Of a stretch of DNA of 64,000 bases, positions 1 through 53,900 are shown piece by piece. The stretch is from Candidatus Poribacteria bacterium. Its GTDB lineage: Bacteria > Poribacteria > WGA-4E > WGA-3G. The notes below the pieces were generated by a model that was not told the DNA's origin, made no database searches, and saw only the letters and a list, made by a program, of their open reading frames with translations. Each line of letters opens with the position of its first letter. Position 1 is the first letter of the stretch. The DNA is taken from the NCBI GenBank assembly GCA_022824265.1, contig JAJEAG010000053.1:1-64000 (forward strand). The letters run 5' to 3'. The translations under genes and the position numbers were made by a program.

Positions 1-132
1 AGAGATATAAACGGCGCGCGTGGGATATTCCTACGCGCTTTGGGAGATAACCCCGCACTGCTATCTATTAGCAGTGTCGCAAACCATGCAGAAACAGATA
101 CGTCCAACGTTCTCTGGGAATGTATAGGTTAA
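1..132 (+). CDS. C-terminal end of a probable TnpB-type (IS200/IS605) nuclease, cut by the window edge
   Basis: Frame 1 is open from the first base to a TAA at 130-132 and encodes the last 43 residues of a protein. It begins RDINGARGIFLRAL. A (D)RD-x-NGAR-x-(I/L)-L segment is typical of the last RuvC motif and zinc-ribbon end of TnpB/OrfB proteins, where the Asp is the third catalytic acid. That is family knowledge; the zinc ribbon and other RuvC motifs lie outside the window. The stop is only 17 bp before the next start, and I see no hairpin of the usual right-end type between them. The gene could be a degenerate copy, or the family call could be wrong. Confidence 0.5.
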   Translation, partial: RDINGARGIFLRALGDNPALLSISSVANHAETDTSNVLWECIG

Positions 133-149
133 TATTATCGGAAACTACT

Positions 150-989
150 ATGATTATTGATTCTCACACTCATGCATGGCAAAGATGGCCCTACCAACCA
201 CCCGTTCCAGATGGTGAAAGTCGTGGTAATGTTGAACAACTTTTACACGAAATGGATTTGCACAATGTTGATAAAGCAGTACTCATCTGTGCGCGTATTG
301 ATAAAAATCCTGACAATAACGACTATGCTGCTGATTGTGTTAAACGATACCCAGATAGACTCATTCAGTTCGCTGATGTTGATTGCTCATGGACAGATAC
401 ATACCATACAGATGGTGCGGCAGACAGATTAAAAACTGCTGCAGAAACATATAATCTAAAAGGTTACACACATTACCTACGAGGTGATGACGACGGAAGT
501 TGGTTCTTTTCAGATGAAGGGCAACGTTTCTTTCAAACGACAGCAGATCTTGAACTGATCGCAAGTATTGCGATGGGTAGTCATCATCACGTTCCACTCC
601 GAAAACTGGCTGCACAGTTCCCCACGGTTCCATTTGTCTGTCATCACATGGCAGGTGCACGTGCCGATGAAATTCCACCATATCCACAATTGGAAGAAGT
701 ACTCGCATCAGCAAAAGAACCCAATATCTACGTGAAAATGTCAGGATTCGCTTATGTCTCAAAGGTTTCTTGGGAATACCCTTATACGGATACACATAGA
801 GTTGTCCGTGCACTTTATGAACATTTTGGTGCATCTCGGCTCTGTTGGGGTTCTGACTATCCGGTAGTTCGCAACTTTATGACATACCAACACTCTATTG
901 AAGCGTTCCGTACGCACTGCACATTCATATCAGATGATGATAAAGCAGAGATTATGGGTGGTACACTTAATCGATTGCTAAATACATAA
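150..989 (+). CDS. Metal-dependent amidohydrolase, amidohydrolase_2 (TIM-barrel) family
   Basis: This 279-residue protein begins MIIDSHTHAW. The His-x-His after strand 1 is the metal-binding signature of the family. Further ligand candidates follow in order: H-H in VCHHMAG (about residue 165) and the late Asp in CWGSDYP (about residue 235). Members hydrolyse or decarboxylate ring compounds and lactones such as 2-pyrone-4,6-dicarboxylate and amidohydrolase-type sugar lactones, but the substrate cannot be told from sequence. The ATG at 150 is preferred over an in-frame ATG at 120, because the motif normally lies within the first ten residues and 120 falls inside the preceding reading frame. It is probably soluble and cytoplasmic, since no signal peptide is visible. 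The next gene has its own promoter, so this one is probably monocistronic. Confidence 0.85.
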   Translation: MIIDSHTHAWQRWPYQPPVPDGESRGNVEQLLHEMDLHNVDKAVLICARIDKNPDNNDYAADCVKRYPDRLIQFADVDCSWTDTYHTDGAADRLKTAAETYNLKGYTHYLRGDDDGSWFFSDEGQRFFQTTADLELIASIAMGSHHHVPLRKLAAQFPTVPFVCHHMAGARADEIPPYPQLEEVLASAKEPNIYVKMSGFAYVSKVSWEYPYTDTHRVVRALYEHFGASRLCWGSDYPVVRNFMTYQHSIEAFRTHCTFISDDDKAEIMGGTLNRLLNT

Positions 990-1019
990 TATCTATCATC
1001 TGCAACTTAGAATTCCGAC

Positions 1020-1048
1020 TTGACATCACAACATATTACTGATATTAT
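1020..1048 (+). promoter_or_regulatory. Sigma-70 promoter of the NHL-repeat gene
   Basis: TTGACA at 1020-1025, a 17-bp spacer, then TATTAT at 1043-1048. The start codon at 1073 lies 24 bp after the -10 box, leaving a short leader of about 17 nt. Confidence 0.75.
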
Positions 1049-1072
1049 ATAGAAAAACAGCAAAGGTTAATC

Positions 1073-3109
1073 ATGGATAAAATTACACCCTCCAAATTTA
1101 ATTATATTCTCGTCTTACTCTTATTTACATTATCAATACTATTTCAAAATACATATTTAAGTAATGCATTTGCAGTGGATTTCATTAAACTTGAACATGA
1201 GTTTTCTGGTAAAGGATCAACTGATGGGGCGTTTGGTAAAGATATTCACATTGCATTTAATAAAAACATCTATGTCAGTGATACAGAAAATCGGTTAATA
1301 CAAAAGCTCTCGCCGACAGGACAATTCCTATTCCAAATCCCCGAAGACCCAGAATCCCCGGATAACATCTTACGTAAACCAGGACACCTTGCCGTAGATA
1401 ACATAGGAAATATCTATGTTGCAGATATAACCGCACATCATATTGCCGAAACTAAAGATCCCAAAATCTATATGTTCGCCCCGTGCGTACGTAAATTTAG
1501 TCCAACAGGTGAGTTGTTACACACATACTTTGTCGATCCTGTTGACGAGAAGCCGGGTGTAGTATTACCTGCAAAGTTAATCATTGATGAAAATGGTAAA
1601 ACCGCATTCGGCATACAACCAACCGGTCACGACCGCGCCCTCCGTGTTGCTGTTAGCGATGATGGTCAATTGTATGTTTTGGATGCAAAACGGGGACGAA
1701 TTCATAAATTCAAGGCTGATGGTGAAAAAGTCCGGACATTCGGTAGGTATGGTGCAGGAGATGGCGAATTTGATAAAGATGCTGCTGATATCGCGATTGA
1801 TGCGCGAGGAAACATCTTCATAGCCGATGCAGGTAATCACCGTGTTGTTAAATTTGATCGTGATGGAAAGTATATGAGTAGTTTCGGAAGAAAAGGACGT
1901 AACAACGGTGAGTTTGTGAGACCAATGGCACTTACGACACTACCTACAGGAGAAGTGTTAGTCAAGGATGCCAGCAAATTCCGCAGAAAAGTTGGAGGAT
2001 TACCGGAAGTTATTGCTCTTTCACCGACTTTGACGCAGCTTACAGAAAGTACACCCAGTCAAGCAGAACTTGCTGATACGATAACGAATGCAACTCGTCC
2101 ACAATATGGACCATTTGCATATAATCCCAACGCAACAGTTAATGCTGCAAATCTAAACAGACGTTTACGTCTCCTTGAAGAAGCAGAATATCTTCGCTAT
2201 TATGAAGACAATGAATATGATGAAGACGATAAAGAACTTGCAGAAGAACTAAAACGAGCAGATATCAGATTGACACTATTTCACAATGTCATCTCACGGG
2301 TACAGAAGTTTGATAACAATGGAAGGTATATTGGACGAATAATATATGAAACTGATCAACTGAGTGAAGAGAAACATGACTTAACTTTTCTTGATCTTGA
2401 CTCATCTGGATACATATACCTGCGAGATACAAGTGATTTCACCATCGCGAAATATTCCATTACCGGTTTTACCGTGAAACCTTCTCACATGAACGGTTTT
2501 TACAGTTCCAGAGTGGCAAATTTGAATAATAAATATACGGAAGATTACGAAGATATTGACTTCTCAACCGATGTAGAGGACAAACTCAACCAGTTGGAAC
2601 TCAAAAATCTATTTGGGTGGACTTATAGTCTTTCCGAACGTTGGCATCTCACTTTTCTTGATGAACTGACATATAGCGAACAAGATGAACGATATACCAC
2701 TCCAGCCAAAATTGAGGATAGTTTTGATTTTGAGACACAGGCATTGGAAAATGCATTTGCAGCAAATCTGAAGTATATTACAAATCCAAATCCTTACCGG
2801 TATAAAGAAATAAACTTGTCTGTTGGTCGCGTTGACGGTACATCTGATCTCACACAGGATGCTCTTTTTCCAGAACTAAATAAACAACGTCGATTAGACA
2901 CAGGTGATGCAAGTTCAACGGTTCTTGAACTCAATTGGGATATATGGTCACGCACAAATCTGTGGTTACGCTATGCGAATCTCAATCCTTCTGAAACAAG
3001 CCGTAATTTTATTCGTAGATTTTACGATGTCTCTGGTGATCTCTATGAAGTATTCGGCAGCCGTAATGAAGCTAGTCAGTTTCTCGGTGAGTTGACGATT
3101 AAGTTCTAA
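1073..3109 (+). CDS. Secreted NHL-repeat beta-propeller protein with a probable outer-membrane beta-barrel C-terminus
   Basis: This 678-residue protein has an N-terminal signal peptide: a Lys-containing start, a hydrophobic stretch at about residues 12-30, and a cleavage site after N-A-F-A. Residues of about 35-300 contain several NHL-type blades with motifs such as G-N-I-Y-V-A-D and G-N-H-R-V-V-K-F-D, which form a six-bladed propeller used for ligand or protein binding. Residues 350-410 are charged and probably helical. From about residue 490 to the end the sequence alternates polar and hydrophobic/aromatic residues in strand-sized blocks and ends in L-T-I-K-F. A terminal Phe after alternating hydrophobics is the classical C-terminal signal of outer-membrane barrels. 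I infer a surface or periplasmic propeller tethered to a barrel. No enzymatic motif was seen. The stop overlaps a possible upstream start of the GNAT gene. Confidence 0.75.
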   Translation: MDKITPSKFNYILVLLLFTLSILFQNTYLSNAFAVDFIKLEHEFSGKGSTDGAFGKDIHIAFNKNIYVSDTENRLIQKLSPTGQFLFQIPEDPESPDNILRKPGHLAVDNIGNIYVADITAHHIAETKDPKIYMFAPCVRKFSPTGELLHTYFVDPVDEKPGVVLPAKLIIDENGKTAFGIQPTGHDRALRVAVSDDGQLYVLDAKRGRIHKFKADGEKVRTFGRYGAGDGEFDKDAADIAIDARGNIFIADAGNHRVVKFDRDGKYMSSFGRKGRNNGEFVRPMALTTLPTGEVLVKDASKFRRKVGGLPEVIALSPTLTQLTESTPSQAELADTITNATRPQYGPFAYNPNATVNAANLNRRLRLLEEAEYLRYYEDNEYDEDDKELAEELKRADIRLTLFHNVISRVQKFDNNGRYIGRIIYETDQLSEEKHDLTFLDLDSSGYIYLRDTSDFTIAKYSITGFTVKPSHMNGFYSSRVANLNNKYTEDYEDIDFSTDVEDKLNQLELKNLFGWTYSLSERWHLTFLDELTYSEQDERYTTPAKIEDSFDFETQALENAFAANLKYITNPNPYRYKEINLSVGRVDGTSDLTQDALFPELNKQRRLDTGDASSTVLELNWDIWSRTNLWLRYANLNPSETSRNFIRRFYDVSGDLYEVFGSRNEASQFLGELTIKF

Positions 3110-3123
3110 TGGAGTATTTAGAT

Positions 3124-4101
3124 ATGGAATTTCGCGCGCTTTATCCTGAGGAATTGGAAGCATGGTTAGACCACGTTACCCATGTCTTTTCAGGTGGTCG
3201 ACAATATTTTTCTAACCACTGGCATAATGATCCGTGGCGCGATGTAGAGGGAATTCGCGTTGCCGTTGATAATGGAAAGATCGTAAGCACTGTGAGAGTA
3301 TTTATCCGTAAGATATACTTCCATGGTGAACCTGTTTCTGTTGGCGGTATTGGAGAGGTCAGCACACGACCAGAATACCGAAAACGTGGTCTCGCGACAC
3401 AACTTCTCAAAGACTCCATACAGTTTATGGAAGACCGTCATATTGCTCTCTCAATGCTTCACGGAAGCCAACGCATATATTCGGTTGAAGGATGGGAAAG
3501 TGTGCCACGTTACTATGCCAAGAAAACCCTCCTCGGTAAAACACAACAAGAATGGAATATCCGTCCAGCCTACTTTCAAGATGCAGACGAGGTAAAACGA
3601 CTCGCTTCACTTTACGATTCCTATTCCCGCAAGTTCAATGGCACATTCGTCAGAGATGACATGGCATACTGGACAGATTGGGTGAAAACCGAATCTCCAC
3701 ATGCTTGGGTTGCTGTACGCGACGGTGTTATTGGAGGATATGTATCAGTTAGAAAACGGGAACAACAATTGGGTGTTAAAGAGTTCATTGTATCGGAGGA
3801 ATTATTTGCACATAACAGTGCCAAAGACTTTTTTGAGGTGATGTTATCTCATGTTATTGTAGAGATGGATGAGGAGAAACTTGAAGTGGAGTATCCAGCA
3901 CCGATTGCAGACGGATTCAACGCTCCATCAGTTGAGACATACGGAAGCACAATGTATCGTATTATCCAACCTTCTGCCCTACCAACAGATTTTGCCAAAA
4001 AACGGATTGATGTATTCCCAGATCTCATGCATTACCAAGTAGAATCTATCAGGCAAGATATAAGATCCCATCATGTCTTCTGGCATACTGATGGATTTTA
4101 G
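3124..4101 (+). CDS. GNAT-family N-acetyltransferase, Eis-like two-domain type
   Basis: This 325-residue protein opens MEFRALYPEELEAW. The acetyl-CoA site is visible at about residues 75-105: a V-G-G-I-G-E-V-S-T strand, then R-P-E-Y-R-K-R-G-L-A-T, the R/Q-x-x-G-x-G/A pyrophosphate loop. Length and layout (N-terminal GNAT fold, second GNAT-like half, C-terminal domain) resemble Eis-type acetyltransferases, which acetylate amines on antibiotics, peptides or small metabolites; the substrate is unknown. I chose the ATG at 3124 because GGAG at 3111-3114 sits 9 nt upstream. The ATG at 3109 overlaps the previous stop and has no clear ribosome site. The gene follows the NHL gene so closely that the two are probably cotranscribed from the promoter at 1020. 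Confidence 0.8.
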   Translation: MEFRALYPEELEAWLDHVTHVFSGGRQYFSNHWHNDPWRDVEGIRVAVDNGKIVSTVRVFIRKIYFHGEPVSVGGIGEVSTRPEYRKRGLATQLLKDSIQFMEDRHIALSMLHGSQRIYSVEGWESVPRYYAKKTLLGKTQQEWNIRPAYFQDADEVKRLASLYDSYSRKFNGTFVRDDMAYWTDWVKTESPHAWVAVRDGVIGGYVSVRKREQQLGVKEFIVSEELFAHNSAKDFFEVMLSHVIVEMDEEKLEVEYPAPIADGFNAPSVETYGSTMYRIIQPSALPTDFAKKRIDVFPDLMHYQVESIRQDIRSHHVFWHTDGF

Positions 4102-4177
4102 AAGGGAACAATTTGCACATATATTTTTTAGACCATGTTTATCATATCTTATATGATGTTTACATGATATACACGCT

Positions 4178-4543
4178 TTATAGTCGACGGATCCGCAAAC
4201 GTCCAGACCTGTAAACTGCAATCATGGGTGGTTTCCAATCGACTTCCATTCTAAGTAAATCTTGCAAATCGGAGATTACTTCAGATGAAGGACGCGCACC
4301 TGGTTGCAGATGGATAATCCCGGTAGTTGGTTGTTTCAGATAAACAGCGAGATGTCCAAAATCAGAATCATGGGTTAAAACAAAGCGGTGCATCGCGTGT
4401 GCGTTTGCAAGAATCTCTTTGTCCTCATAGTACTGCCAACCCTCTTCACGAGTATATAGCACATCAATACCTTGAGACCTCAGAAATCGAACTACCGAAA
4501 AAGCAATGTTTGCATCTGCAATAAGTGGAGGCAGTATCGTCAA
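4178..4543 (-). CDS. DUF5615 PIN-like protein, probable toxin of a toxin-antitoxin pair
   Basis: This 121-residue protein begins MTILPPLIADANIAFSV. It carries the PIN-like acidic residues of DUF5615: Asp in A-D-A-N near the N-terminus, a central K-E-I-L helix, and T-H-D-S-D-F-G at about residues 57-63. PIN-like domains usually are Mg-dependent RNases, and DUF5615 genes are commonly paired with DUF433 genes as VapC-like toxins. Its start overlaps the stop of the upstream DUF433 gene by 4 bp, so the two are translationally coupled. Catalytic activity is inferred from the family only. Confidence 0.8.
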   Translation of the reverse strand: MTILPPLIADANIAFSVVRFLRSQGIDVLYTREEGWQYYEDKEILANAHAMHRFVLTHDSDFGHLAVYLKQPTTGIIHLQPGARPSSEVISDLQDLLRMEVDWKPPMIAVYRSGRLRIRRL

Positions 4544-4779
4544 GATGTCCCCTCACGCGGAAAAGGCATATCTATCACGATGTCGTTCTTTAATGCGCGA
4601 GCTGCGTAACTAAGTACAGCCCGAATACTTTCTTCAGTTAGATCAGGATAATCCGCAATAATCTCCTCGTTTGTCATACCGTTTGCCAACAGTCCCAGGA
4701 CCTGTTCCACACTTATTCTTGTGCCTTCAATTACAGGTTTTCCGCCCAGGATTTCTGAATTAGCGATTATTCTTACCAT
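4540..4779 (-). CDS. DUF433 protein, probable antitoxin partner of DUF5615
   Basis: This 79-residue protein shows the full DUF433 pattern: I-L-G-G-K-P-V-I-E-G-T-R-I-S-V followed by a helix-turn-helix-like stretch (V-L-G-L-L-A-N-G-M-T, then E-I-I-A-D-Y-P-D-L) and S-Y-A-A-R. DUF433 proteins have a winged or homeodomain-like DNA-binding fold and are found beside PIN-like toxins. A strong GGAGG precedes the ATG and a promoter lies at 4820-4848. The pair lies between unrelated genes, as mobile stabilisation modules often do. Antitoxin function and autoregulation are inferred. Confidence 0.82.
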   Translation of the reverse strand: MVRIIANSEILGGKPVIEGTRISVEQVLGLLANGMTNEEIIADYPDLTEESIRAVLSYAARALKNDIVIDMPFPREGTS

Positions 4780-4819
4780 GATTATTTTCCTCCATCATAA
4801 AATTTATCTACCCATAAAT

Positions 4820-4848
4820 ATTTTATCAAAGTTTCCTGTTTATATCAA
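4820..4848 (-). promoter_or_regulatory. Probable sigma-70 promoter of the DUF433/DUF5615 pair
   Basis: Read on the minus strand: TTGATA (4848-4843), a 17-bp spacer, TAAAAT (4825-4820), about 40 bp upstream of the DUF433 start. Confidence 0.5.
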
Positions 4849-4872
4849 ATCGTTTTATTCTCCATAAAAGAC

Positions 4873-4901
4873 TTGACATCTAAACCGCTGCAGCATACAA
4901 T
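4873..4901 (+). promoter_or_regulatory. Sigma-70 promoter of the Gfo/Idh/MocA gene
   Basis: TTGACA at 4873-4878, 17-bp spacer, TACAAT at 4896-4901. It lies 63 bp upstream of the chosen ATG at 4965, and it places the alternative GTG at 4917 very close to the expected transcription start. Confidence 0.75.
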
Positions 4902-4964
4902 CATTTCTGAGATAATGTGATAACCTTATTGGAATCAGACTTTAGGATTGAGGAGGACAAGAAC

Positions 4965-5963
4965 ATGGCAAAGTTACGTGTAGGTGTAATAGGTTGTAGT
5001 GGTATCGGGACAACACACGCATCGGGGTTGATTGGTCTACCAAACGTAGAATTAGCCGCTGGATGCGATTTTGTGCAAAGCACACTGGATGCTTTCAAGG
5101 CAAAATATCAGGAAAATTGGGGTAACATCTCACTTTATACAAACCATAACCAGATGCTTGAAAACGAAGATTTGGATGTAGTAACGGTCGCAACTTCTGA
5201 CCATCGGCATGCTGACCTTGTCGTTGATGCTGCAAACGCAGGTGTCAAAGGTATCTTTTGTGAGAAACCGATGGCTACCAACGTTGAAGACGCAGATAGA
5301 ATGCTTGAAGCAGCTGAGAAAAACGGGACGATTCTATCTATTGACCACACTCGCAGATGGCAACCTTTATGGCGACACACCAGAGAAGAAATCGTTGGTG
5401 GAGGACGTATCGGTGATGTTCGCTATGTCATTGGCACGTTGAGTGGTGGACGTGCAATGCTTTTCCGTAACGGAACACATTGTGTTGATGCAATCTGTTA
5501 TTTCGCTGATTCAACTCCAGAGTGGGTTTCCGCTGAATTGGAGGATGGCTACGAAGACTACAATGAATATAAAGGTGACGGTGGACACGACCCGTCAACT
5601 GAACCATCAGCACACGGTTATATCCATTTTGAAAATGGTGTGCGTGGTTACTATGCAGGTGGACCAAAAAATACTCCATCCGGTTTCAGATGTGAGATTG
5701 TTGGAACAAATGGGTATATTTTAATTAGTGATAAAGGGGCGACAATTCATCAAGGAGATGATGTTGAAAAAATAGAAGCTCCAACGTGGGATGTTGTTGG
5801 CATTCCCGCTGGTGTTCAAGAGACGGTAAAACTCGTTGCTGAAGGTGGAGAACCGGTATCACCGGGTAGTGAAGGGCATAAAGTTGTTGAAATTATCATC
5901 GGTTTCTTAACATCACAGCAGAACGACAATGGGAAAATCAGGTTACCACTTCCGCGTGCCTAA
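4965..5963 (+). CDS. Gfo/Idh/MocA-family NAD(P)-dependent oxidoreductase
   Basis: This 332-residue protein has an N-terminal Rossmann fold (L-R-V-G-V-I-G-C-S-G-I-G near residue 5), then T-S-D-H-R-H-A and the conserved E-K-P-M-A-T (about residues 95-100), where the Lys is the catalytic residue of the family. The C-terminal substrate domain contains H-C-V-D-A. Members oxidise or reduce sugars, inositols and related polyols. The substrate here is unknown. The ATG at 4965 is chosen because GGAGG lies just upstream; a GTG at 4917 would add 16 poorly conserved residues. Its TAA (5961-5963) interlocks with the stop of the convergent ABC gene (5960-5962), so the two transcripts overlap at their ends. 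Confidence 0.88.
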   Translation: MAKLRVGVIGCSGIGTTHASGLIGLPNVELAAGCDFVQSTLDAFKAKYQENWGNISLYTNHNQMLENEDLDVVTVATSDHRHADLVVDAANAGVKGIFCEKPMATNVEDADRMLEAAEKNGTILSIDHTRRWQPLWRHTREEIVGGGRIGDVRYVIGTLSGGRAMLFRNGTHCVDAICYFADSTPEWVSAELEDGYEDYNEYKGDGGHDPSTEPSAHGYIHFENGVRGYYAGGPKNTPSGFRCEIVGTNGYILISDKGATIHQGDDVEKIEAPTWDVVGIPAGVQETVKLVAEGGEPVSPGSEGHKVVEIIIGFLTSQQNDNGKIRLPLPRA

Positions 5964-7126
5964 TCTATATCTGTTCTTAAGAGGATGGCATTCTCTGGTA
6001 ACCATTGTAGATATACAATATCTCCCTGTTGATACCGATGTTTCTCACCCATGCTTTTATTCTGTTCCTCAATACTGTTTGGTGATGTATCTATCTTTCG
6101 CCATTGCTGATTTACGACAATAGACGAAGGGTAATCGGTTCTCACTGTGTATTGAACTGTAGTGCCGAGATAACTTTCGTCTTGAATTGTCCCTTTCAAG
6201 CAATTTGGCAAATCTGGATTCAGTTCTGTTGATATTTCAAACCGTTCAGGTCGCACTGCAATTGTTACGGATGCACCTACCGGAAGATTATCCTTGTTAA
6301 TACAGACGAATTTAAACGACGGTTCGCTATCCGACTCTATTTCAGCAACGTCACCATCTGTCCTTATCAGCGTTCCATTAAGGAAGTTTGTAGTTCCGAT
6401 GAAATCTGCAACAAAACGATTTTGTGGTAAATCATATATTTCGGATGGTGTCCCTACCTGTAGGATTCTCCCTTCATTCATCACTGCTATCCGATCTGAC
6501 AATGCCAATGCTTCTCCCTGATCATGCGTAACATAAACAAAAGTAATACCGACTTTCCGTTGAAGTGCTTTCAGTTCCACCTGCATCTGTTTACGAAGTT
6601 TTTGGTCCAGTGCTGAAAGGGGTTCATCTAAGAGAAGGATTATCGGTTCATTGATTAACGCCCGCGCCAATGCAACGCGCTGTCTTTCCCCACCAGAAAG
6701 CTCTTTAGGTTTCCGTTCACCATAGCCAGACAATTGGATTAGATCAAGTGAACGTTCAACTGCATTCGCTATTTCCGCTTTTGGAAGTTTCTTCATCTGT
6801 AGTCCAAATGCAATGTTTTGGGCGACATTCTTATGTGGGAACAGCGCATAATTTTGAAAGACTGTGTTGACAGGACGACGATAGGGTGGTGTTTCAAGCA
6901 TCTGCTCGTTGTTGATATAGACATCTCCTGAAGTGGGATGGATAAACCCACCAATTATACGTAGAGTAGTCGTTTTACCACACCCACTTGGACCGAGTAA
7001 AGAAAAAAACTCACCACCTTCTATCTGCAATGATACATCATCAACTGCAACTGTATCACCGAACTTTTTTGTTACTGATGAGAGTATTATCTGACCTACG
7101 GACATGTTTAATCCGTTCTCTGACAT
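5960..7126 (-). CDS. ABC transporter ATP-binding protein, PotA/MalK-like import ATPase with TOBE domain
   Basis: This 388-residue protein has Walker A (L-G-P-S-G-C-G-K-T-T) at about residues 43-52, a Q-loop, the signature L-S-G-G-E-R-Q-R-V-A-L-A-R-A, Walker B (I-L-L-L-D-E-P-L-S-A-L-D) and the H-loop (V-T-H-D-Q). Residues past 240 form a TOBE-type regulatory domain (V-R-P-E-R and following strands). This arrangement is typical of ATPases that energise polyamine, iron(III), sulfate or sugar importers. No permease or binding-protein gene is adjacent, so its partners must be encoded elsewhere. The first ATG overlaps the end of the methyltransferase gene; an in-frame ATG at 7105 would avoid that overlap and keep the whole ATPase fold. 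Both starts are possible. Confidence 0.85.
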   Translation of the reverse strand: MSENGLNMSVGQIILSSVTKKFGDTVAVDDVSLQIEGGEFFSLLGPSGCGKTTTLRIIGGFIHPTSGDVYINNEQMLETPPYRRPVNTVFQNYALFPHKNVAQNIAFGLQMKKLPKAEIANAVERSLDLIQLSGYGERKPKELSGGERQRVALARALINEPIILLLDEPLSALDQKLRKQMQVELKALQRKVGITFVYVTHDQGEALALSDRIAVMNEGRILQVGTPSEIYDLPQNRFVADFIGTTNFLNGTLIRTDGDVAEIESDSEPSFKFVCINKDNLPVGASVTIAVRPERFEISTELNPDLPNCLKGTIQDESYLGTTVQYTVRTDYPSSIVVNQQWRKIDTSPNSIEEQNKSMGEKHRYQQGDIVYLQWLPENAILLRTDID

Positions 7127-8361
7127 ATCACAATGTTTTCTTCATTCATCGTTGACGAAGTTTGTCCTACTATATTGGATGGACTGTTCTTTTTTGGCAT
7201 CCGTTTATTAGGGATATTTCTAACAATGGTTTCCTTATGTGTAAATCCGTGTTTGCCAAATGAATATGCAACAAATTCGTCTGTTGGTAGAATAACGTCC
7301 TTTACACGACGGTTGCCAACAACATAGCATATTGTGGAACGTCGGGAAAGTATATTAGCAACTGAATCTATACTTTGTCCAAGATCAATGTAGAAAGCAT
7401 TAACTTCATGAGCACGTTTCTCATCGATTGATTGTATTTTTTCTACTGCTGAGGAAATAGGTGAATTCTTCAATATCTCTTTGTTAGGTGATCCACCCAT
7501 TGCAAGTTTGTCGATTTTCCGTGCGTTTGGTAACTCAAGCCATTCAGCGGATAAACGAGAAAATTGTCCATACGCAACTGTAGTTTGCGAATCGCCATAA
7601 GGTGGGGAAGTAATTACCAGATTATAACCACCAATCGGTTTTGGCATAGGTAGTTCTCCAGCAACAGTATTGACATCACAGATAGATGCTTCTACATCTT
7701 TTCGTTTTTCAAGATATGTGATTAGACCTTGTTTATTCCTATTTATTTTTTTACGAAAGATACCAAATACATCGGGTTGAAAATTCTCAAGTTTCTCTGC
7801 TGGAATCCGATGTAATTTGAATGTGCTTGTTCTTGTATAGGATACCTCGCGCACTGTTTCAGAAAATGCTACAATAATGAAATTCCTTACTGCCTTATCT
7901 TCTACCTTGTTAATCAAAGTCAGTAAACAAGCAAGATGTTTTTTTACTTCATCTGAAAACCAATAATCTAAATTCGGTATGTCAGGTATTGGTGTATCTG
8001 TAATCTTTGCAGTTCCAAATTCTAATTCAAAGAAAGTTTCGTTTATCCTATTGATTTCGCTATCAAGAGTATTTAAAGAGATATGGGTAGTTTTTGTTGT
8101 TGCAATCAAACGTACGAGTGGATTGATATCACACCCGACACTGTGCATACCGAACAGTGATGCTTCAACAAGCGATGTGCCAGTACCGCAATACGGATCA
8201 AGCAGCCATTCACCTTCTACGCCGTACTGATTTAGTAGTTCCCTTGCTATCTGAGGAATCATCATGGCAGGATAGGTATGGAAGCAGTGGGTGTACTCTT
8301 TGGTATCCGCTGTTCGAAAGTCCCACGATTCATCTTTGTATTTTAGATTCCATACACTCAA
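7108..8361 (-). CDS. DNA methyltransferase, probable N4-cytosine/N6-adenine type with TSPPY motif
   Basis: This 417-residue protein carries an AdoMet-binding motif I (L-L-D-P-Y-C-G-T-G-T-S-L-V-E-A, about residues 54-68), the acidic strand-2 motif (V-G-C-D-I-N-P) and the catalytic motif IV I-T-S-P-P-Y-G-D at about residue 250. The T/S-P-P-Y variant is commonest in N4-cytosine methyltransferases, while D/N-P-P-Y or F usually mark N6-adenine, so N4C is favoured but not proven. Motif I precedes motif IV by about 190 residues. It lies downstream of a second methyltransferase on the same strand with a 78-bp gap. No restriction endonuclease gene is recognisable nearby. Confidence 0.8.
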   Translation of the reverse strand: MSVWNLKYKDESWDFRTADTKEYTHCFHTYPAMMIPQIARELLNQYGVEGEWLLDPYCGTGTSLVEASLFGMHSVGCDINPLVRLIATTKTTHISLNTLDSEINRINETFFELEFGTAKITDTPIPDIPNLDYWFSDEVKKHLACLLTLINKVEDKAVRNFIIVAFSETVREVSYTRTSTFKLHRIPAEKLENFQPDVFGIFRKKINRNKQGLITYLEKRKDVEASICDVNTVAGELPMPKPIGGYNLVITSPPYGDSQTTVAYGQFSRLSAEWLELPNARKIDKLAMGGSPNKEILKNSPISSAVEKIQSIDEKRAHEVNAFYIDLGQSIDSVANILSRRSTICYVVGNRRVKDVILPTDEFVAYSFGKHGFTHKETIVRNIPNKRMPKKNSPSNIVGQTSSTMNEENIVICQRTD

Positions 8362-8439
8362 ATTAGTTTTTCCCGATTGTTAAAGCACGAATCCCAGTAA
8401 TTTGGATCAATTCTAAAAGCTGTACCTCGGTTGCTAACA

Positions 8440-9201
8440 TTATAACAACAAATCACACCCGATAAAATTTCGTCCTTTTGAGAGTGCTGCTTCCATGACA
8501 GAAAAAGAACCTGCTGCAGGATCAATAACATAGTCCCCTTCATTACTGACAGCTGCTATAAGTTCTGCTTGTAAACCGATAGGTTTTTGATGGGGATGTT
8601 CCTTTGTTTTTGTTCGTTCAAGCCAAACATCGCGAATATTGTGTATTTTCCATACGCCTTTAGCCTTCCGCGGATGTTTTTGTAAAACAACGCAATATTC
8701 ACTCACGCGTCGTGATCTATAACCCATTCCAAGTCTGTCTTTATTCCAAACGATCAAATCAACAACGTCTAACTGTGTGCCATCAAACCATGTTTTGAAT
8801 CCTTGACAAAGATGAAATTTATCCATCCACAGAAATAGATGTCCAGATGGAATAAGTACGTTATCAATACCTTGAATAAATTCTCCAATCAGTTCCTCGG
8901 ACATTTGCATCAATGAACTTCTACGTTTTTCTCTACTCTTTCCCTCATTACCATATTTCATTTTATCAAGTACACCTCTATATTGTGGGTCAAGAAACGC
9001 AACTGGTATAGATTCCTCAGGTAGATGACAAAGGAATTTCAGACCATCCATTTTTAACCTTGTATTAGGTATCAGAAAATCGGGTAAATCTATAGCAGGG
9101 GTTTGTATTATCCTTTCAGAGGAAAAAACTGAATTAGCACCGCCATCTGTTGTTTCAGGAAAAAGTGTCGGCGGTTCCTCCTTGAAGTATAATTTTTTCA
9201 T
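8440..9201 (-). CDS. DNA methyltransferase, beta-class motif order (motif IV before motif I)
   Basis: This protein has 253 residues from the chosen start. Motif IV appears as F-L-D-P-Q-Y-R-G early (about residue 70), where the usual form is D-P-P-Y. Motif I is at the C-terminus: [11 protein letters not shown], followed by F-I-G-C-D. The H-P-H-Q-K-P segment before motif I is a hallmark of this group of phage-like and restriction-modification N4/N6 methyltransferases. The ATG at 9201 is preferred because AAGGA lies just upstream and because longer forms run into gatB. The Pro-to-Gln change in motif IV is unusual and could alter activity. It precedes the TSPPY-type enzyme, and the two may act as a pair. 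Confidence 0.8.
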
Positions 9202-9271
9202 ATATGATCCTTGTTTCCTATCTCCATTTAACCCGTTCACTTTTATGGACATCACGAGTTTACATGATATA

Positions 9272-10717
9272 TTATTCCGTTGACAACTCACGGTTCAAAA
9301 TCTGGTTTACGAGTTGTGGGTTTGCTTTTCCTTGAGTTGCTTTCATTACCTGACCGACCAGAAATCCGATTGCTTTTTTCGTCCCATCACGAACATCCTG
9401 AGCAGGACCTGGGTTATCCTCAATCACTTGAAGGACGATTGCTTCAATCTCGGATGTATCAGTAATCTGTGACAAACCTTTATCTTCAACAATCTGTTTC
9501 GGCATTTTACCTGTATCAAAAGCATCATCAAGCACAGATTTGGCAATCTTTCCGCTGATAGTGTTGTTTTTTATTAATTGAATGAGCTCACTTAGATGTG
9601 CTGGTGTAACTTTAGAATCTTGGATCTCAATCTCAGCTGTATTGAGTAAGCGACTTAGGTCACCCATAATCCAGTTGGCACAGATTGATGGTTCCTTACT
9701 AAGGTGTGCTGCTTCATCAAAGAAATCAGCTATCTGTCGTGTAGTGGTTAGGAATTCAGCGTTTTCACTTGAAATGTCATAGTTTTGAATGAATCTTGTG
9801 CGTCTTTCAGCAGGAAGTTCAGGAAGTGAGGGTTGTATTTCATCAATCCATTCATCGTCTATCTGAACATGAACAAGGTCTGGTTCGGGAAAATATCGGT
9901 AGTCGTCCGCTTCTTCTTTTCCGCGCATCGCAACAGTTTTACCTGTATTTGCATCAAACAACAACGTTTCTTGGACCACCTCTCCACCTGAATCAAGAAT
10001 ACGTGCTTGCCGTTTTACTTCGTATTGCATTGCATCCATTAATTCTTGAAAAGAGTTTTTGTTTTTTATCTCAGTGCGTGTCCCCAATTCTTTACTCCCC
10101 TTCGGACGTAGAGAGATATTCGGTTCACAACGTAGACTTCCTTCCTCCATATTACAATCACTAACTTCAATGTATTCTAATATTTCTTTCACAGCACGAC
10201 AGTATGCAATTGCTTCTTCAGGTGAGTGAATTTCAGGTTCACTTACGATTTCCATTAGAGGGACACCTGCTCGGTTGAAATCCATAAAGCTTCGTGTCGG
10301 ATCACCAGTTACTTCAGCATGGATAGATTTTCCAGCATCCTCTTCAAGATGAATCCTGCGGAGTGCGACAGTACGTAATTCACCATCTAATTCAAATGTT
10401 ATTTCACCATTTTTACACAATGGCAGGTCATATTGTGATATTTGATAGTTTTTTGGGAGATCTGGATAGAAATAGTTCTTCCTGTCAAACTTGCTGTATG
10501 TAGTTATATCGCAATTCATTGCCAATCCAGCACGGATAGCATATTCTAATGCACGTTTATTAATAACTGGGAGTGTTCCGGGCATACCTAAGCAAATTGG
10601 ACATGTACAGTCATTTGCTGATGCACCGAAGGTATAAGCACAATTGCAGAATAACTTGCTCTCAGTGCATAATTCTGCGTGAATTTCTAAACCGATAACT
10701 ATTTCATATTTGTCCAT
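9272..10717 (-). CDS. gatB: Aspartyl/glutamyl-tRNA(Asn/Gln) amidotransferase subunit B
   Basis: This 481-residue protein matches GatB along its length: [13 protein letters not shown] at the start, the C[13 protein letters not shown] zinc and catalytic region (about residues 30-50), [34 protein letters not shown], and the C-terminal GatB/YqeY tRNA-binding helices. GatB phosphorylates Glu-tRNA(Gln) or Asp-tRNA(Asn) for amidation within the cytoplasmic GatCAB complex. gatA and gatC are not beside it, so the complex is encoded at separate loci. Cys residues of the zinc site (C-N-C-A-Y and C-T-C-P-I-C) are present. Confidence 0.97.
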
Positions 10718-10752
10718 CGTCTTACTCTCATTTACTTTTTTCTATAATAAAC

Positions 10753-10795
10753 AGCGCGAGTGTCCATCTCAATAATTGAAGGGACATCTCGCGCT
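10753..10795 (-). terminator. Inverted repeat downstream of the aldo/keto reductase, possible terminator
   Basis: AGCGCGAG-TGTCC at 10753-10765 pairs imperfectly with GGACA-TCTCGCGCT at 10782-10795. It lies between the aldo/keto reductase stop and the gatB start. No long T-run follows, so it could also be a dispersed repeat. Confidence 0.45.
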
Positions 10796-10812
10796 ACTAA
10801 AATAAAAATATA

Positions 10813-11586
10813 TTATATGCTATTCCCCGATAATTCATTTACAACTGCCACGTTTGCTTCTACTTCAGCATGAGATGTCATACCGATTGTCATCGCATGA
10901 ACACACGGTAACCCCATAACAAATTCTATTGCATCTCGTTGACTTTCAGAATCTTTTGCTAATTTACCCATACCTAAAACTTTCATTCCATAGATACCTT
11001 TACCGGTAAACGCCATGTGCTCCATGGTTCTGATAACATCTGGGGGAGAAGCGTCCATTTGAACACCAGTATGATTTATTCGTGCCAATACAACTTCAAC
11101 CCACTCGGTCATGGAGGATGTTTGGAATGCTCCAAAGTCGTGGCAGGAAACACCGTGGGCGCGAATTAATCCCTGTTCTTTACAACGGGAAAGTGCTTCC
11201 ATAGCATCCGGATAACGGCTTGGCCAGTCAACTTGTGTTAGGCAGTGAAGCAGGACGATATCTACATAGTCAGAACCGATCTCTTTAAGAAATCGCTTAA
11301 CATCTGCTTCTACCTCTTCAGCAGTTCGAGAAACAGTTTTCGTAGTAATAGTTACACTATTTCTGGGAACATGTTTAAGAGCTTCTTTAATATGTGGATG
11401 GCTGCCATACTGGTCGGCAGAATCCCAAAATGTTACTCCTTTTTCGTGTGCAAATAAAAGTAGGTCGCGTAAGGCTTCAAAACCTAAATCTGTCTGATTT
11501 GAACGACCATTCCAACCATTTGAACCAGTACCGATTGAAAGTCGTGAAACATCTAAACCAGTTTTACCAAGTGATACAATTTCCAT
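10813..11586 (-). CDS. Aldo/keto reductase family protein, short form
   Basis: This 257-residue protein begins M-E-I-V-S-L-G-K-T-G-L-D-V-S-R-L-S-I-G. The catalytic tetrad of the family is traceable: Asp and Tyr in F-W-D-S-A-D-Q-Y-G (about residues 54-62), Lys in T-I-T-T-K-T, and His in I-V-L-L-H-C. It is shorter than the usual 300-340 residues and lacks the C-terminal cysteine cluster present in some ferredoxin-like members, so the last part of the barrel is reduced. Such proteins reduce aldehydes or ketones with NADPH in the cytoplasm; the substrate is unknown. AGGAG precedes the ATG and a promoter lies at 11620-11648. It is probably monocistronic. Confidence 0.85.
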   Translation of the reverse strand: MEIVSLGKTGLDVSRLSIGTGSNGWNGRSNQTDLGFEALRDLLLFAHEKGVTFWDSADQYGSHPHIKEALKHVPRNSVTITTKTVSRTAEEVEADVKRFLKEIGSDYVDIVLLHCLTQVDWPSRYPDAMEALSRCKEQGLIRAHGVSCHDFGAFQTSSMTEWVEVVLARINHTGVQMDASPPDVIRTMEHMAFTGKGIYGMKVLGMGKLAKDSESQRDAIEFVMGLPCVHAMTIGMTSHAEVEANVAVVNELSGNSI

Positions 11587-11619
11587 GGTTTTCTCCTATA
11601 TATTAATATATCTGATGAA

Positions 11620-11648
11620 AGTATATCATTTTTTTCGTATTCTTACAA
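11620..11648 (-). promoter_or_regulatory. Sigma-70 promoter of the aldo/keto reductase
   Basis: Minus strand: TTGTAA (11648-11643), a 17-bp spacer, TATACT (11625-11620), 34 bp before the start codon. Confidence 0.6.
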
Positions 11649-11745
11649 CTTAATCCATTAATAAGATAGAGGCATTTAATTGTCACTGTAAGATGTTGGT
11701 ATATACCTCGTTTTTTCTTCAAATTCTGTGGATTTTGTTTCCTTC

Positions 11746-11876
11746 AAACCGTACCAGTTTTCGTTTTTTGGTACGGTTTTGGTACGGTGGTGTTTTCCCA
11801 GTCACTGTCTAAGTTTATTGGGGTTTTTATGTAGGTTTTTGCATTTTTTTATTTGGCATTTTTGGTACGGTTTGGG
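11746..11876. repeat. Cluster of GGTACGG motifs with an 11-bp inverted repeat, in G/T-rich non-coding DNA
   Basis: AAACCGTACCA (11746-11756) pairs perfectly with TGGTACGGTTT (11769-11779) around a T-rich loop. The same GGTACGG core recurs in direct orientation at about 11781-11787 and 11864-11870. The surrounding plus strand is strikingly G/T-rich. It holds no convincing reading frame and no known RNA that I can recognise. Confidence 0.6.
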
Positions 11877-12599
11877 TTTTGTATGATTGTCTGTTTTTAT
11901 CGTGTTACCTTTCTGTATGGAAAATTGGAGGTGATGATTCTGTTTATGTGTGTAAGAGGATTGTGGGTATCTAGCGCGCTTACAAAGTGCCAAATCAACG
12001 GTATGAATGCTTTTTAGCATTCCCCGCCTACCGTTTTGTGCATAAGTCTTGCCTTTAAAAGGTTACCGTACGGTAACCTTTTTTACATGACGGTAACTTT
12101 TGGTGTGATCGGTCTGCGTATAGTGCCTGTCTGGTTTTATTGGTTATTTGCATCGGTTTTTTCAGGAGAAAAAAGTAAATTTTGGTAACTTTTGCATCCT
12201 CTGGAAAAATACCAGTTTTTTGACTACTATTTCGTATATTTTTTCTAATTTCTTATGAATGTTGGTATCGTAAAATGTTAACATTATTGGGTTACCCATA
12301 ATCAAAGATTATATGTGACACATATTATAACATATAATAATAACTAATGTCAAGTTAAAAATTACATTTTTAAGTTTTTTTTGAATTTATTTCAGTTTTA
12401 TCGTTAAATTTGTAATATATTTTATGAATTACCGTTTAACCGATATGGAAATTTAACGTAATGAAATACAAAAAATAAATTACACAAGGTATTTCATGCA
12501 GGTGCTTTTACCAAACGTTTGACACAAAGCCCAATGCTTTAACTTTGGGATGTAGTGGTGCTCGTCCCTCAATCTCTCAAAATAATACCATTTCTATAT
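11877..12599. other. Non-coding stretch, part of a 1.6-kb gene-free region
   Basis: No supported gene is seen. It holds the perfect palindrome at 12057-12082 and two further GGTAACTTTT copies (12092-12101 and 12183-12192), then an AT-rich, low-complexity part (about 12290-12480). Short frames on either strand lack ribosome sites and protein-like composition. Confidence 0.6.
12057..12084. terminator. 26-bp perfect palindrome followed by T-run
   Basis: AAAAGGTTACCG followed by its mirror makes a perfect palindrome at 12057-12082, with T continuing to 12084. It has the form of an intrinsic terminator, but no gene ends just upstream. The arm GGTAAC-C/T-TTT recurs twice in the next 110 bp, so it may instead belong to the motif family at 11746-11876. 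Confidence 0.4.
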
Positions 12600-44603: not shown

Positions 44604-47600
44604 ATGACAAGACGCAGAATCCTATTAATTTACTTGTCTCTATTCATTCTACTTTGTGGAATTGGTGGATATTTTTTTATTAGTTCGGATTACTTTCTTG
44701 ATAAATACATTAAGAATCGTTTAATTTCAGCATTGCAAGACCAGATAAATGAAGACTATAAAGTTATAATAGACAATTTGCATGGAAATGTCCTCACTGG
44801 TGTTGTGGTTGATGACTTTTCTATAATAGATGAAAAAAACGTTGAACTACCTATCCTCTCCACAGAAAAGATAATCCTTAAATACAACATACTTGGTTTG
44901 CTTAGACGTAAGTTCCTTGTGACTGAGTTTGAGATAGATTCTCCGAAAGTGGATGTTGTTCGTCAGCCAGATGGACAGGTTAATCTAACACAATTATTTC
45001 GCAAATCAACGCAGGATTCTGAAACAGAGTCTGATAGTAATTTTACCTTTGCTATATCAAGTTTTAAAATCGATGGTGGTGAGATTAACTTTGTTGATAA
45101 ACAAGAGAACATAAAAGTAAGTCTTCCTAAAATAGAGGTTAAGTTAGATGGTCAGTTAGATGAATGGAATCATTCGGGAAGTTTCTCTATTGGTAAGGGT
45201 AATTTCATTATAAATGGAACTGAGATGTTGATTGACCGTATTGATGATGTGAAGTTTGCACTTACAACAAATGGAGGTGAACTTAATCCTCTTCAACTAA
45301 AATTGGGAAACTCAATAATAGATATCAAGCAATTCAACAGACATTGGAATAATGGTCTGTGGGATACGCGTTTAGAAATGACAATTGATGCTTCAGATGT
45401 GCAGAATTTTCTTGATGGTAAAACTCAACTTGCAGGATTAGGTAGGATTGTATTGGATATAAACGGAACAGATTCTATTTTGCAAGGTAAACTAACGGTT
45501 ACTTCAGAAGCGTTGACAATCCAGCAAAATATAGGCACATCAACAGGCAATTCCGATTCTAAATTGAGAAGATTAGATATAACAGATTTAGTAATAGACA
45601 CCATATTGGATATAGATGGCGAACCCAATGTGACATTAGAAAAACTGAGTTTACAAATTGCTGGTGGCACATTGTCTGGTAACGGAAAGGTCACATTAGA
45701 TAGTTCAATCAAAGGAAATCTGTTGGATAGGTTACAGGAATATGTTAAACGGAACATCTCGTACGATGGTAATATACAAATTTCAGATATAAAACTAAAA
45801 TCCCTCTTAGCAATGTTCGTAGAAATACCGAAGGAGGCACCGCAAGTAGAGTCTGGATCATTAAACGGTTCAGCACAAATTAACGGTGATACTGCAGGAT
45901 TATTACACTTTGATAGTAATGTTGATTTATCCAAAACACATCTACTTGTAAATGGAAAAACAGAACCAATATTATTGAATGCGTCTTATCTGAAATGTGA
46001 AATTACATCGGAAAAGAACAATGCATCAAAAATCTATGCAAATGGTATGTTTGATGATGCCGCTTTTAAATTGAATGGTTCTTTGGAGGAGATGGATTTA
46101 AGAATAGACAATTTTGATTTTGGAAAGATCTGCAAAATAGGAAATACTATTCCCTTTGTAGGAATAGGAAGTGTTACGACAAAGATTAATAAAGATGGTA
46201 CTGCTACTGGATATATTGAGATACCTGAAACTTCCTATGGTAATTTTATGCCACCAATTTCACTGGGTAAATTAACTGGAAATTTTCGATATTTTGAGGA
46301 AACGGTGTATATTGAAAATGCAAAACTTGTAAAAGAAGGTGAAACCGGAGAAACAAAAGTATCAATTACTGGTGATGTCAAATTAGAAAATAAACTACCT
46401 ACAAATTTTAACGTAATTGCAGAGCAATTGTTTCTTGACTCTGATTATAATAAACTCTTTTTTCAGCAAGAACTTCCAATCAAAGGCAAGATAAAAGGCG
46501 AACTACATTTATACGGATACCTTATTGATAATCTTGATGGTAAGGGTCTTTTCACTATAGAATCCGGAAATGCATGGAATATCAATATTGATCCAGTAAC
46601 TATGTCATTGGAAATAGACGACTATTCTCTAACTATTCCAAATTTTGAGATTACAACACGTGGGCAACAAGTGGTTTTTAATGCACATGTTACGAGTGAC
46701 GGTGAGTTCAACTTTAATCTCAAGAATCAAAACGATAACCCTATTCAATTAGCTGAAATTGCCCTTGCTGCGGAAATCGCTGATTTTCCACTTGATGGAA
46801 AATTGAATATTAACGTTGATTCATATCAAAAATTGAATGAAGATTTTGTATTTGAAGTAGATTTTGACTTTTCTGATTTGACATTTGATGGCAATCCACT
46901 TGGTGATGCAACACTGTTTGCTACTCTTATAGTGGGAAATAGGGAATTGGACGAACCGGATTATTTCAACTTTACGGGAGAAGCGTTTGAAGGAACAGTT
47001 AGTATCAAAGGAAGAATCATCAATATCATAGATAATCCATATCAATTCACCTTAATAAGTGAAGGTATGGCTGCTACACCAATTCTTCGCATTTTTGATA
47101 AAAGACTTGAAGCAATTACTGGCACTGCAGATGGCATCGTTAAGGTTGAAGGAACACTAACAGATTTAACCATAATACCTGAAGATCCTATTGATAAACG
47201 TATTCATCCTTATGATGTTGATATTACAGTCAATAATACGCGACTACAGTATAATTCAGTCAATTTTACAAATTCAAAACCAATTCTGATGTTATTAAAG
47301 GATGACATACTGACGATTGTTGATAGTTCACTGGCTGTTGATGGAGAGAAAACATCATTCGTAAATCTTACTGGCAGTTTGAATTTGAAAAATGAGGAGG
47401 TTGATATCTCAGCAAATTCAGATGATAATATTGTTCTTGAACATTTTGGTAAAGCGTTTGATGTTCCAGTATCGGGTAGTGGTTTCTACCAATTAAAATG
47501 GAATGGCACGATAAATAACCCACTCGTTGAACTAAAATGGGGAATACCGTCGTTAGTTGTGGAAACAGAATTGGGGAATATTAGTTCAAGTAATATTGGT

Positions 47601-50981: not shown

Positions 50982-50983
50982 TA

Positions 50984-53900
50984 ATGTGTAATAATGATAA
51001 TAATTTTACTCAGAAATCTAATTCAATTTTATATGTTCCGCAACGAATTTATATTGCTATTCTTACTATCCTTCTCATTTACTATTTCTCCATTCCCTCC
51101 GAATGCATTGCAGATGACACTACAATATCACAACAACCACATATTGAAACTTTACAACAGAATAAAGTGATAAAGATTGAGTTTGTAATTGATGAACATC
51201 CTGTGACTGATACAGAGTTACAAAACAATCTAATTGATCTGATCAATTTGTCTATCGGGGCTAACTTTTCTCGATATGCTGTCCAACGGAGTGTAACTTC
51301 TATCTATGCGCTAAAAGAGTATTCCCAAGTTGATGTATATACAAAATATACACAAGATGGGATCATATTAAAATACGAATTAGTCAAGATGATGTTACTA
51401 AAACAAGTTAAGGTAATTGGCATAGATTCTGATGAACTCTTGAGTGCAATTACTTCAGAACTAAAACTAAAACCAGAGAAAATATATGCTCCTATAATTG
51501 CTAAAGATGATGTAAATACTATCAAGGAATTGTGTGCTGATTGGGGTTATTTTGATGTCAGTGTAGATGTCATTACAACCGTTGCTAATGGAACAATAAC
51601 ATTTCAGATTACATTAGGTAATCCTACTTATGTTTCGGAATTCAAAATTGATGGAAATGCATCTATATTTACAGAACATATAAAAGAAGTATGTAATACT
51701 CACCTCAATCAGATATATCGTCAATCTGATGTTAATGAAGATATAAAGGCAATTCAAGAACTATATAGTAATAGATATTATCCAAGTAGTGATGTTAAGT
51801 CTACTTTCAATCATGATGTTGGTTTATTGACATACTATATTAATGAAGGTAAACAATTATTACTTGATTTTGTGGATGAGAATGGGAAACCTATATTACA
51901 GGAACCCTTTTTTTATAAGTTATTGTCAGTATTAGATATTGACACCGAAGAACCAGAAAGAGAACAATTGAGGAAAAAAATAGAACCGTTAATCAGCGAT
52001 AGATCTCGATGGGAAGATGAAGTTAAAGACTATTTTGAAGCAAAGGGATACCACGGAACTGAAGTAGCATCCAGAACATTAACAAATTCACCACTTCATA
52101 TTGAGTTTATTGTTAAACATGGTACTCGTTATTTTGTGTCTTCAGTAGAATTCACTGGTAATGAGGCGTTTTTGGATAGGGAGTTACTTCGCGAAATGGA
52201 ATCTAAACCTGTCAATTTTTTCTCAAGACACTTTCGTAAACGTTATTTTTCTGACTTTGCCCTTGATAGGGATAAGAACAGAATAGAGATATTATATGAA
52301 AGGGCAGGATATCGCAATGTGAAAATAATATCTAAATTAAATAAACATAACGATAATAAGCAGCGAGATGGTGAAGTCTCAATAAATTTCACTATTTACG
52401 AACCTTCAAAAGAGGTGATTAACAGATGTTTGTTTAGAGGGAACAAATTACTTAATGCTGCAACACTTTATAATGCATTACCAAGTAAACCTCCAGAACC
52501 CAATGCACCTCTTGTTCAGAAAAAATACGAAAATGCCATTCTTAAAGCCTATCAAGATAGAGGTTATTATTATGTAAGGGTTGAAAAAACAGAATATAAG
52601 CATAAAACGGATGTACCAGTGTTTCAAATTAAAGGAGATTTTACTCAACATCTGAATGCTGGTAGAATACCTCCAAAATTGATAGATGCATTTCATGAAA
52701 ACAATCTAACACTTTCTGGTGTATTCATTGCAACAAGTATTGGAGTGGAATGGAGTATACAAGATGTAAATGGTAACGCGCGTTATACATTGGAACAAGA
52801 AAAGAATCATCTTTCGGTTTATCAGCATGGTATTCTGCAATTTGATATTATTGAGGGGGATAGGATATTATTTGGTAAGTTTAATTTTGTTGGGGACCCA
52901 GGTGTTGTTCCTTCTGTTTTATATCGCGAAGTTTCTGGCTTACAAGGAACTCTTCTTACCAAAGATAAGTTAGATCGTGTGATTCAAAACTTATACAATA
53001 CTCGTATCTTTGAACCAGGAATCCAAAGGAAACTAATACCATCGAAAAGTAATTTTAATCAAATTAATAACATAGACAACGACATTAATCCTATTAGTTC
53101 TTTACCAATTCAGAAAGTTAACGATGTTGAAATCAGACTTCAACATCGCCTACCAAGAACGTCTGGCGCGAGTGTGGGTTATGGTACCTCTGACGGTCCT
53201 CGTGGGACAATTGCATTTAGTCATTTCAACTTATTTAGACGTAATATCCGATTTCACTTACGTGGTAGGTGGGGGACACGCGGATATTTATATGATACAA
53301 CGCTTACTGAACCATGGTTGATAGGTAGAACAAGTGGGAGTTTACAGTTTCTGGGTCGGAAATTGGAAGAGGATGATGGAGTTCGTGCATTGCAAGGTAG
53401 TTTTACATTGAGTAGAAAGTTGCCGCGTTCACACCGCTTGAATCTACAGTACAGTTATCGTTATTTAAAAGATACATTTATAGCGGGATTATCAGGAACA
53501 CCGTCATTGCCAAAACCATCAACCACAGTCAGTAGTCTGCGTTTTTTATGGAGACAAGATAGTAGAGTTCCTTCTTTAAACCCAAGATCAGGTATGCTAA
53601 ACGAAGTAACAGTTGAGTATGCTGGTGGTGTTTTGGGTGGAGAAAGCGGTTTCATTAAGTTCGTTTCAGATTCAGAATATCACAGACAATTAAATGTATT
53701 TGGTTATGTATTATCCTCAGCACTACAATTGGGTTACACGCCGGGATTACAAACAAATGATAATGATGAGGAAGAATTAATTTCATTTGAAAGATTTTGG
53801 GCAGGAGGAAGCACAACAGTCAGAGGATATGAGGAGAGAGGACTCGGTCCTGAAGATAGTACAGGGAAACATCGGGGTAACGTCCAATTAATATTTAAGA

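Follow-up and report, generated by a model that had tools for sequence, protein, structure and literature searches.

A conserved Poribacteria protein family that joins an NHL propeller and outer-membrane-type strands in a single chain

The NHL propellers of Brat, TRIM2/3/71 and PknD belong to RNA-binding, ubiquitin-ligase or kinase proteins. At the bacterial outer membrane, BamB is a separate eight-bladed propeller lipoprotein that stands beside the Omp85 barrel BamA. In an account of Gallionellaceae, the NHL proteins UetHI are named together with the porin UetC (PMC10734462). NHL repeats of sponge symbionts have been classed as eukaryotic-like domains (PMC5524777) and are likewise counted among eukaryotic-like host-interaction domains in a further report (PMC9531527), while free-living Thaumarchaeota are described as also having NHL repeats (PMC7848895). 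No description of a propeller-barrel fusion, or of the Poribacteria protein considered here, was found in the open-licence papers searched.

The gene under study lies near the start of a 64,000-nucleotide stretch of a Candidatus Poribacteria contig, analysed as a whole and referred to below as the window. An earlier note, made from the letters alone, had reported an open reading frame (ORF) at 1073-3109 encoding an NHL propeller apparently fused to an outer-membrane barrel. The reading frame is confirmed, with an NHL propeller and outer-membrane strands in one chain. The main features are as follows.

1073..3109, forward strand: complete coding sequence, 678 amino acids, ATG start, stop codon included.
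1073..1174, forward strand: putative type I-like signal peptide, residues 1-34 (...LSNAFA/VDF), read as such on sequence inspection; no Cys within it in the window protein.
1175..1990, forward strand: NHL propeller blades preceding the insert, residues 35-306 (PF01436, AF2, VIA matches over 32-470).
1991..2281, forward strand: insert 307-403 separating the last two blades, partly helical, acidic, low pLDDT.
2282..2470, forward strand: closing propeller blade, residues 404-466 (strands 404-464; inside structure matches reaching 465-470).
2477..3106, forward strand: outer-membrane strand domain, residues 469-678 (AF2 pLDDT 91.8, pTM 0.77; Foldseek, VIA, alternation).
3080..3106, forward strand: terminal strand with a GELTIKF end, beta-signal-like, with invariant F678.

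The homologue set comprises 67 named loci, 65 of which hold a closed ORF matching the 678-residue protein; L088 and L097 are truncated at contig ends. Both halves are present in 64 of these 65 ORFs (38-93% identity), the sole broken member being L122, and the nearest named relatives are Candidatus Poribacteria records at 93 and 90% identity. In L122 (KatS3mg115, 7938-9533), the frame of the orthologue stops at 532 amino acids (query residue 538). Judged by coordinates, G079:C11 is this very locus, and there the C-terminal part continues in a different frame; the break is either a sequencing error or genuine. Cleavage of the signal peptide would be expected after residue 34, and the full-length AF2 model has a helix at 6-30. 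In many orthologues one of the first 48 residues is a Cys, which on inspection falls in the hydrophobic stretch and not at the cleavage site.

The propeller is well supported. PF01436 (NHL) exceeds its curated cut-off (64.4 bits against 20), the PDB sequence matches are mainly NHL domains of TRIM-type proteins and designed propellers, and a Pfam match to SGL is marginal (26.8 bits against 26.3). Partial profile matches within the propeller to ScyF (NF035926; best stretch 192-305) and LIC_12708 (NF047780; best stretch 31-151) do not reach their cut-offs, with 107.5 against 350 bits and 35.1 against 150 bits, respectively. A full-length AF2 model (42 alignment rows, mean pLDDT 74.6) shows propeller strands up to residue 306, a low-confidence region at 307-403, strands at 404-464 and then long C-terminal strands. 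Residues 32-465 of the model match the Brat NHL domain 5ex7 with Z 29.1 (267 aligned of 274, 2.8 Å), which identifies a six-bladed propeller, and residues 32-470 match 4zlr with Z 28.6. Since these matches span 32-465 and 32-470, the final blade is placed past the insert, at 404-466. The NHL blades noted earlier in the N-terminal half are thus borne out as a propeller, but one that runs longer, through 35-306 and 404-466. The insert contains 18 D/E and 9 K/R. The mean share of the commonest residue is 0.80 over 467-678, 0.79 over 404-466, 0.77 over 35-306 and 0.68 in the insert, which makes the C-terminal domain the slightly best-conserved region of the protein.

The C-terminal domain was modelled alone (residues 469-678, AF2 monomer, 61-row alignment), giving eight long strands with mean pLDDT 91.8 and pTM 0.77. 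These comprise residues 473-490, 501-519, 524-542 and 551-571 (strands 1-4) and 578-597, 606-625, 628-651 and 657-676 (strands 5-8, the last two interrupted). The number of strands is even, as in outer-membrane barrels, and their length of ~20 residues is twice a membrane span. At E 1, Pfam yields nothing over the last 210 residues of the window protein, and NCBIfam gives a single match at E 0.12, far below cut-off. Likewise, no C-terminal domain family is found by Pfam at E 0.001 in the 61 family members; PF13505 (OMP_b-brl) appears in 2/61 at E up to 1 (best 0.0037) and not in the window protein. Matches to DUF3601 in 8/61 members (best 0.022) and to NF053839 in 39/61 (best 0.019; 11.2 bits for the window protein against a cut-off of 600) were taken as chance. 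A profile of the 61 members finds nothing among PDB sequences but a nudix-type protein at E 0.9.

Comparison of structures is more informative. In a Foldseek search of the PDB with the 469-678 model, ranks 1-20 are all outer-membrane proteins, including OmpA, OmpW, FapF, a Legionella porin, OprG, FyuA and Pla. These matches are weak (four at E <= 0.001, best 3.0e-4; TM-score to the query <= 0.36 in the OmpA and OmpW rows), and complement C9/perforin pore proteins start at rank 21 with probability 0.05-0.21. Outer-membrane proteins also occupy all 50 best rows of VIA-align. No match at E 0.001 was obtained in the viral structure library with the C-terminal domain model or in PHROGs, and no relative was found among 35 candidate stretches of viral contigs. 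The last 190 residues had been described as barrel-like; outer-membrane-type strands are indeed predicted there (AF2, Foldseek), but over ~210 residues (469-678).

The LTIKF terminus is as described from the sequence. All 61 rows of alignment A4 have Phe at position 678, and the pattern [VILMFYW]x[VILMFYW]xF ends 65/66 focal ORFs (a set that includes the window ORF and the broken L122) compared with 7/595 other ORFs of at least 150 residues from the same loci, four of the seven being one repeated family. Membrane-type alternation was scored over the ten residues of each strand closest to the short turns and chain ends, with 5000 within-segment shuffles. The focal family scores 0.441 against 0.229 for shuffled sequences (3/5000 shuffles reach the observed value), and a paralogous family described below scores 0.531 against 0.228 (0/5000). 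The outer strand halves show no alternation, with 4686/5000 (focal) and 2171/5000 (paralogue) shuffles reaching the observed value. The amphipathicity score tried first, based on the best 9-residue window and the octanol scale, had been reached by 529/2000 shuffles for the focal family and was rejected; for the paralogue the figure was 9/2000. The turn-side score, with its fixed halves and simpler scale, was devised after this first score and inspection of the strands, and the focal family test is thus not blind. The paralogue offers the fairer comparison, and in view of the first score's failure with the focal family it is given more weight.

With respect to closure of the barrel, VIA-align superposes the C-terminal domain on FauA over 173 residues at 2.9 Å, on HasR over 178 at 3.0 Å and on FecA over 188 at 3.3 Å, followed by Fiu (201 residues, 4.0 Å) and CymA (Z 12.6, 174 residues, 4.8 Å). 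OmpW and OmpA superpose at 9.9-13.0 Å in Foldseek. The model hence appears to favour arcs of larger TonB-dependent receptor barrels over most small closed barrels. The earlier note had staked its reading on a closed barrel in the predicted C-terminal part: the model is confident and its tightest fits are large-barrel arcs, yet the Bdellovibrio OmpA structure 9gf0 superposes over 147 residues at 3.3 Å (VIA-align). Covariation between strand 1 and strand 8 (mean-field DCA, 131 rows, Neff 33) ranks 18/28 in the joint set, 25/28 in the focal family and 7/28 in the paralogue, and decides nothing on their contact because known neighbouring strands also rank unevenly. It may be that the modelled sheet is open, whether as an AF2 artefact of a shallow alignment or as part of a real barrel pooled from several chains.

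The loops of the C-terminal domain model fall on two sides, one holding 491-500, 543-550, 598-605 and the hairpin tip 652-656, the other 520-523, 572-577 and 626-627 together with the domain N-terminus and F678. An even strand number and a C-terminal Phe at the periplasmic rim place both ends of BAM substrates in the periplasm. The linker from propeller to strand domain is only ~7 residues, leaving no room for autotransporter-style passage through the lumen. On these grounds of strand parity, terminal Phe and linker length, the propeller is most likely on the periplasmic side of the outer membrane and not at the surface, and the earlier suggestion of a surface receptor or gated pore is not supported. 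Two further elements of the strand domain stand out.

2543..2572, forward strand: conserved acidic loop linking strand 1 to strand 2 (residues 491-500), predicted to be extracellular; conservation is 0.85 in the focal family and 0.91 in the paralogue.
2786..2803, forward strand: conserved short turn 572-577 (PNPYRY), predicted periplasmic (conservation 0.93 focal, 0.76 paralogue).

The predicted outer loops of the focal family are conserved at 0.77-0.90, which is unusual for surface loops. In the acidic loop D491, Y492, D494 and D496 are invariant in alignment A2, making it a possible metal site or partner-binding site. The loop reads EDYEDID in the focal family and IDNQDDLD in many paralogues.

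The C-terminal domain profile (A4) matches 79/84 genomes of the phylum. The focal family itself is present in 78/84, since the sole match of G076 is the paralogue (L163), and one of the five genomes with no A4 match (G035) holds a copy cut off close to a contig end. In the subset with completeness of 90% or more and contamination of 5% or less, the focal family is found in 53/55 genomes, G009 and G071 being the two without it. The paralogue in the source genome (595 amino acids, G000:C44) has the same part order and ends GYF, whereas the paralogues in G076, G077 and G080 lack the final Phe and end GLD or GYL. Other NHL proteins exist in the source genome beside these two; a supposed third copy at C47 (E 0.076) was a false lead, the ORF in frame reading like a radical-SAM protein. 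A joint profile of focal family and paralogue matches 82/84 phylum genomes, 74/84 having two or more matching places, a few of which are perhaps a single gene in pieces.

In a midpoint-rooted tree of 30 rows (12 focal, 18 paralogue), the two families are divided by a single split supported at 100/100. Rows from the deep families f9 and f10 occur in both clades (L054 and L160 for the paralogue; FL114 and FL116, taken as G081 and G082, for the focal family), and on the simplest reading the duplication therefore predates the sampled radiation of the phylum. Searching for homologues with the two-part layout returned both halves in the 64 named loci noted above, and the joint C-terminal domain profile matched 0/302 genomes outside the phylum at E 0.01. 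These 302 are a small fraction of the genomes available, and a diverged domain could have escaped the profile. Thirty NHL loci from 10 genomes outside the phylum were also inspected, taking the longest frame across the locus middle (several loci share one gene and 4 frames are cut); the barrel-type terminal pattern was absent from the end of all 30. Judged from these profile matches, the protein apparently represents a conserved, phylum-specific outer-membrane protein family.

Immediately downstream of the focal gene lies one conspicuous neighbour.

3109..4101, forward strand: GNAT acetyltransferase neighbour, its ATG overlapping the stop codon by one base; not counted as part of the system.

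The GNAT cluster is found downstream of the focal gene in 43/66 loci, with different neighbours in other clades, and no operon is conserved across the phylum in these 66 loci, many of them cut by contig ends. This lack of a steady operon fits a general envelope protein rather than part of one pathway. A DUF5615/Mut7-C-like protein is encoded on the reverse strand at window 4178-4543, and its cluster is near the focal gene in 7/66 loci. In the deep-lineage loci L115, L117, L118 and L122, one or two members of a cluster containing ABC ATPases lie directly upstream. The source genome has six Omp85-family matches and four OmpA-domain (PF00691) matches. Elsewhere in the window (44604-54136, forward strand) a gene for a 2125-residue protein, which we take to be of TamB/AsmA type, overlaps by 4 bases a gene for a 1052-residue protein with a PF01103 (Omp85) match, perhaps a TamB-TamA-like pair. 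No multihaem cytochromes were recognised by eye among the ORFs of window 1-12000.

Computation has yielded a propeller fold, membrane-type strands, a terminal Phe, phylum-wide conservation and an old paralogue. As to how the parts might work together, we lean, by a little, towards a periplasmic docking scaffold held by a small barrel. The protein would be exported by Sec, and the BAM machinery would insert the eight C-terminal strands in the outer membrane as a small, presumably closed barrel of the OmpA/OmpW size class. This strand domain would anchor the six-bladed NHL propeller against what is probably the periplasmic face, where the propeller would most likely serve as a scaffold on which a partner in the envelope docks. 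A scaffold is preferred because no catalytic family other than the marginal SGL match exceeds its cut-off in the propeller, no partner gene was found, and conservation is deep; given that SGL does lie marginally above its cut-off, an enzyme role may be conceivable. The fit to arcs of FauA, HasR and FecA could also be read to mean that the domain does not close alone, and that several copies, or the focal protein together with its paralogue, combine their sheets of eight strands in one large barrel, a pore or export channel with propellers around its periplasmic opening. The pooled-barrel pores of the C9/perforin kind that follow the outer-membrane proteins in Foldseek point the same way, as does the co-occurrence of two paralogues of the same layout, fully separated in the tree and together occupying at least two places in most phylum genomes. 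Nevertheless, monomer AF2 on a shallow alignment of similar sequences may leave a barrel open, the OmpA-type chain 9gf0 does fit, and charged inward-facing residues seen on sequence inspection would equally suit a packed core like that of OmpA; to our knowledge, eight strands per protomer corresponds to no known form of pooled barrel. We regard such pooling as rather unlikely. Its more specific form, in which the two ancient paralogues are halves of a composite channel, a wide multi-chain barrel with an NHL-ringed periplasmic mouth, is very unlikely, but if true would make that channel a phylum-specific export or uptake gate.

It is also highly improbable that the propeller acts outside the cell as a surface receptor with the barrel a mere anchor. 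The sponge-symbiont literature, in which NHL is among the 'eukaryotic-like' domains thought to act on the host (PMC5524777, PMC9531527), would favour that role. However, the even strand number, the terminal Phe and the short-turn side put both termini on the periplasmic side, passage via the lumen would need a longer linker, and the family is also present in the deep lineages SpSt-970, KatS3mg115, casp150 and Arabian9, labels that do not suggest sponges. Hardly any probability attaches to the C-terminal strands being a soluble or surface-layer sheet outside the membrane: the long strands, the outer halves lacking alternation and the want of a Pfam family in the 61 members would be compatible with this, but turn-side alternation is seen in two families, the terminal pattern marks the focal ORFs and few others, and outer-membrane proteins are the top structural matches in both Foldseek and VIA. 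As the focal and paralogue families are old and phylum-wide, further evidence would be needed before their NHL domains are taken as a trait of symbiosis.

The periplasmic scaffold on a small barrel, as preferred above, has parallels in several described systems. In BamB on BamA, too, a propeller is held on the periplasmic face of a barrel in the outer membrane, but here the arrangement would be a single chain and the propeller is NHL-type and six-bladed. UetHI and UetC likewise bring NHL proteins together with an outer-membrane barrel within a single predicted system, but as separate proteins accompanied by multihaem cytochromes (PMC10734462), whereas here there is one chain. The propeller shares its fold with the NHL domains of Brat, TRIM2/3/71 and the extracellular domain of PknD (Z 21-29); unlike these, it has a 97-residue insert splitting the last two blades and is followed by an outer-membrane domain. 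That domain has the OmpA and OmpW transmembrane domains as its Foldseek ranks 1 and 2, and resembles them in having eight amphipathic strands, a side on which the turns are short and a C-terminal aromatic residue; it differs in its low identity (8-13%), the global superposition of 9.9-13.0 Å, its longer strands and the N-terminal propeller. The family adds a conserved outer-membrane component to the picture of an uncultured phylum, the membrane part of the window protein being one with no Pfam model. NHL propellers and small outer-membrane barrels are each known; the present protein joins an NHL propeller with outer-membrane strands in one chain.
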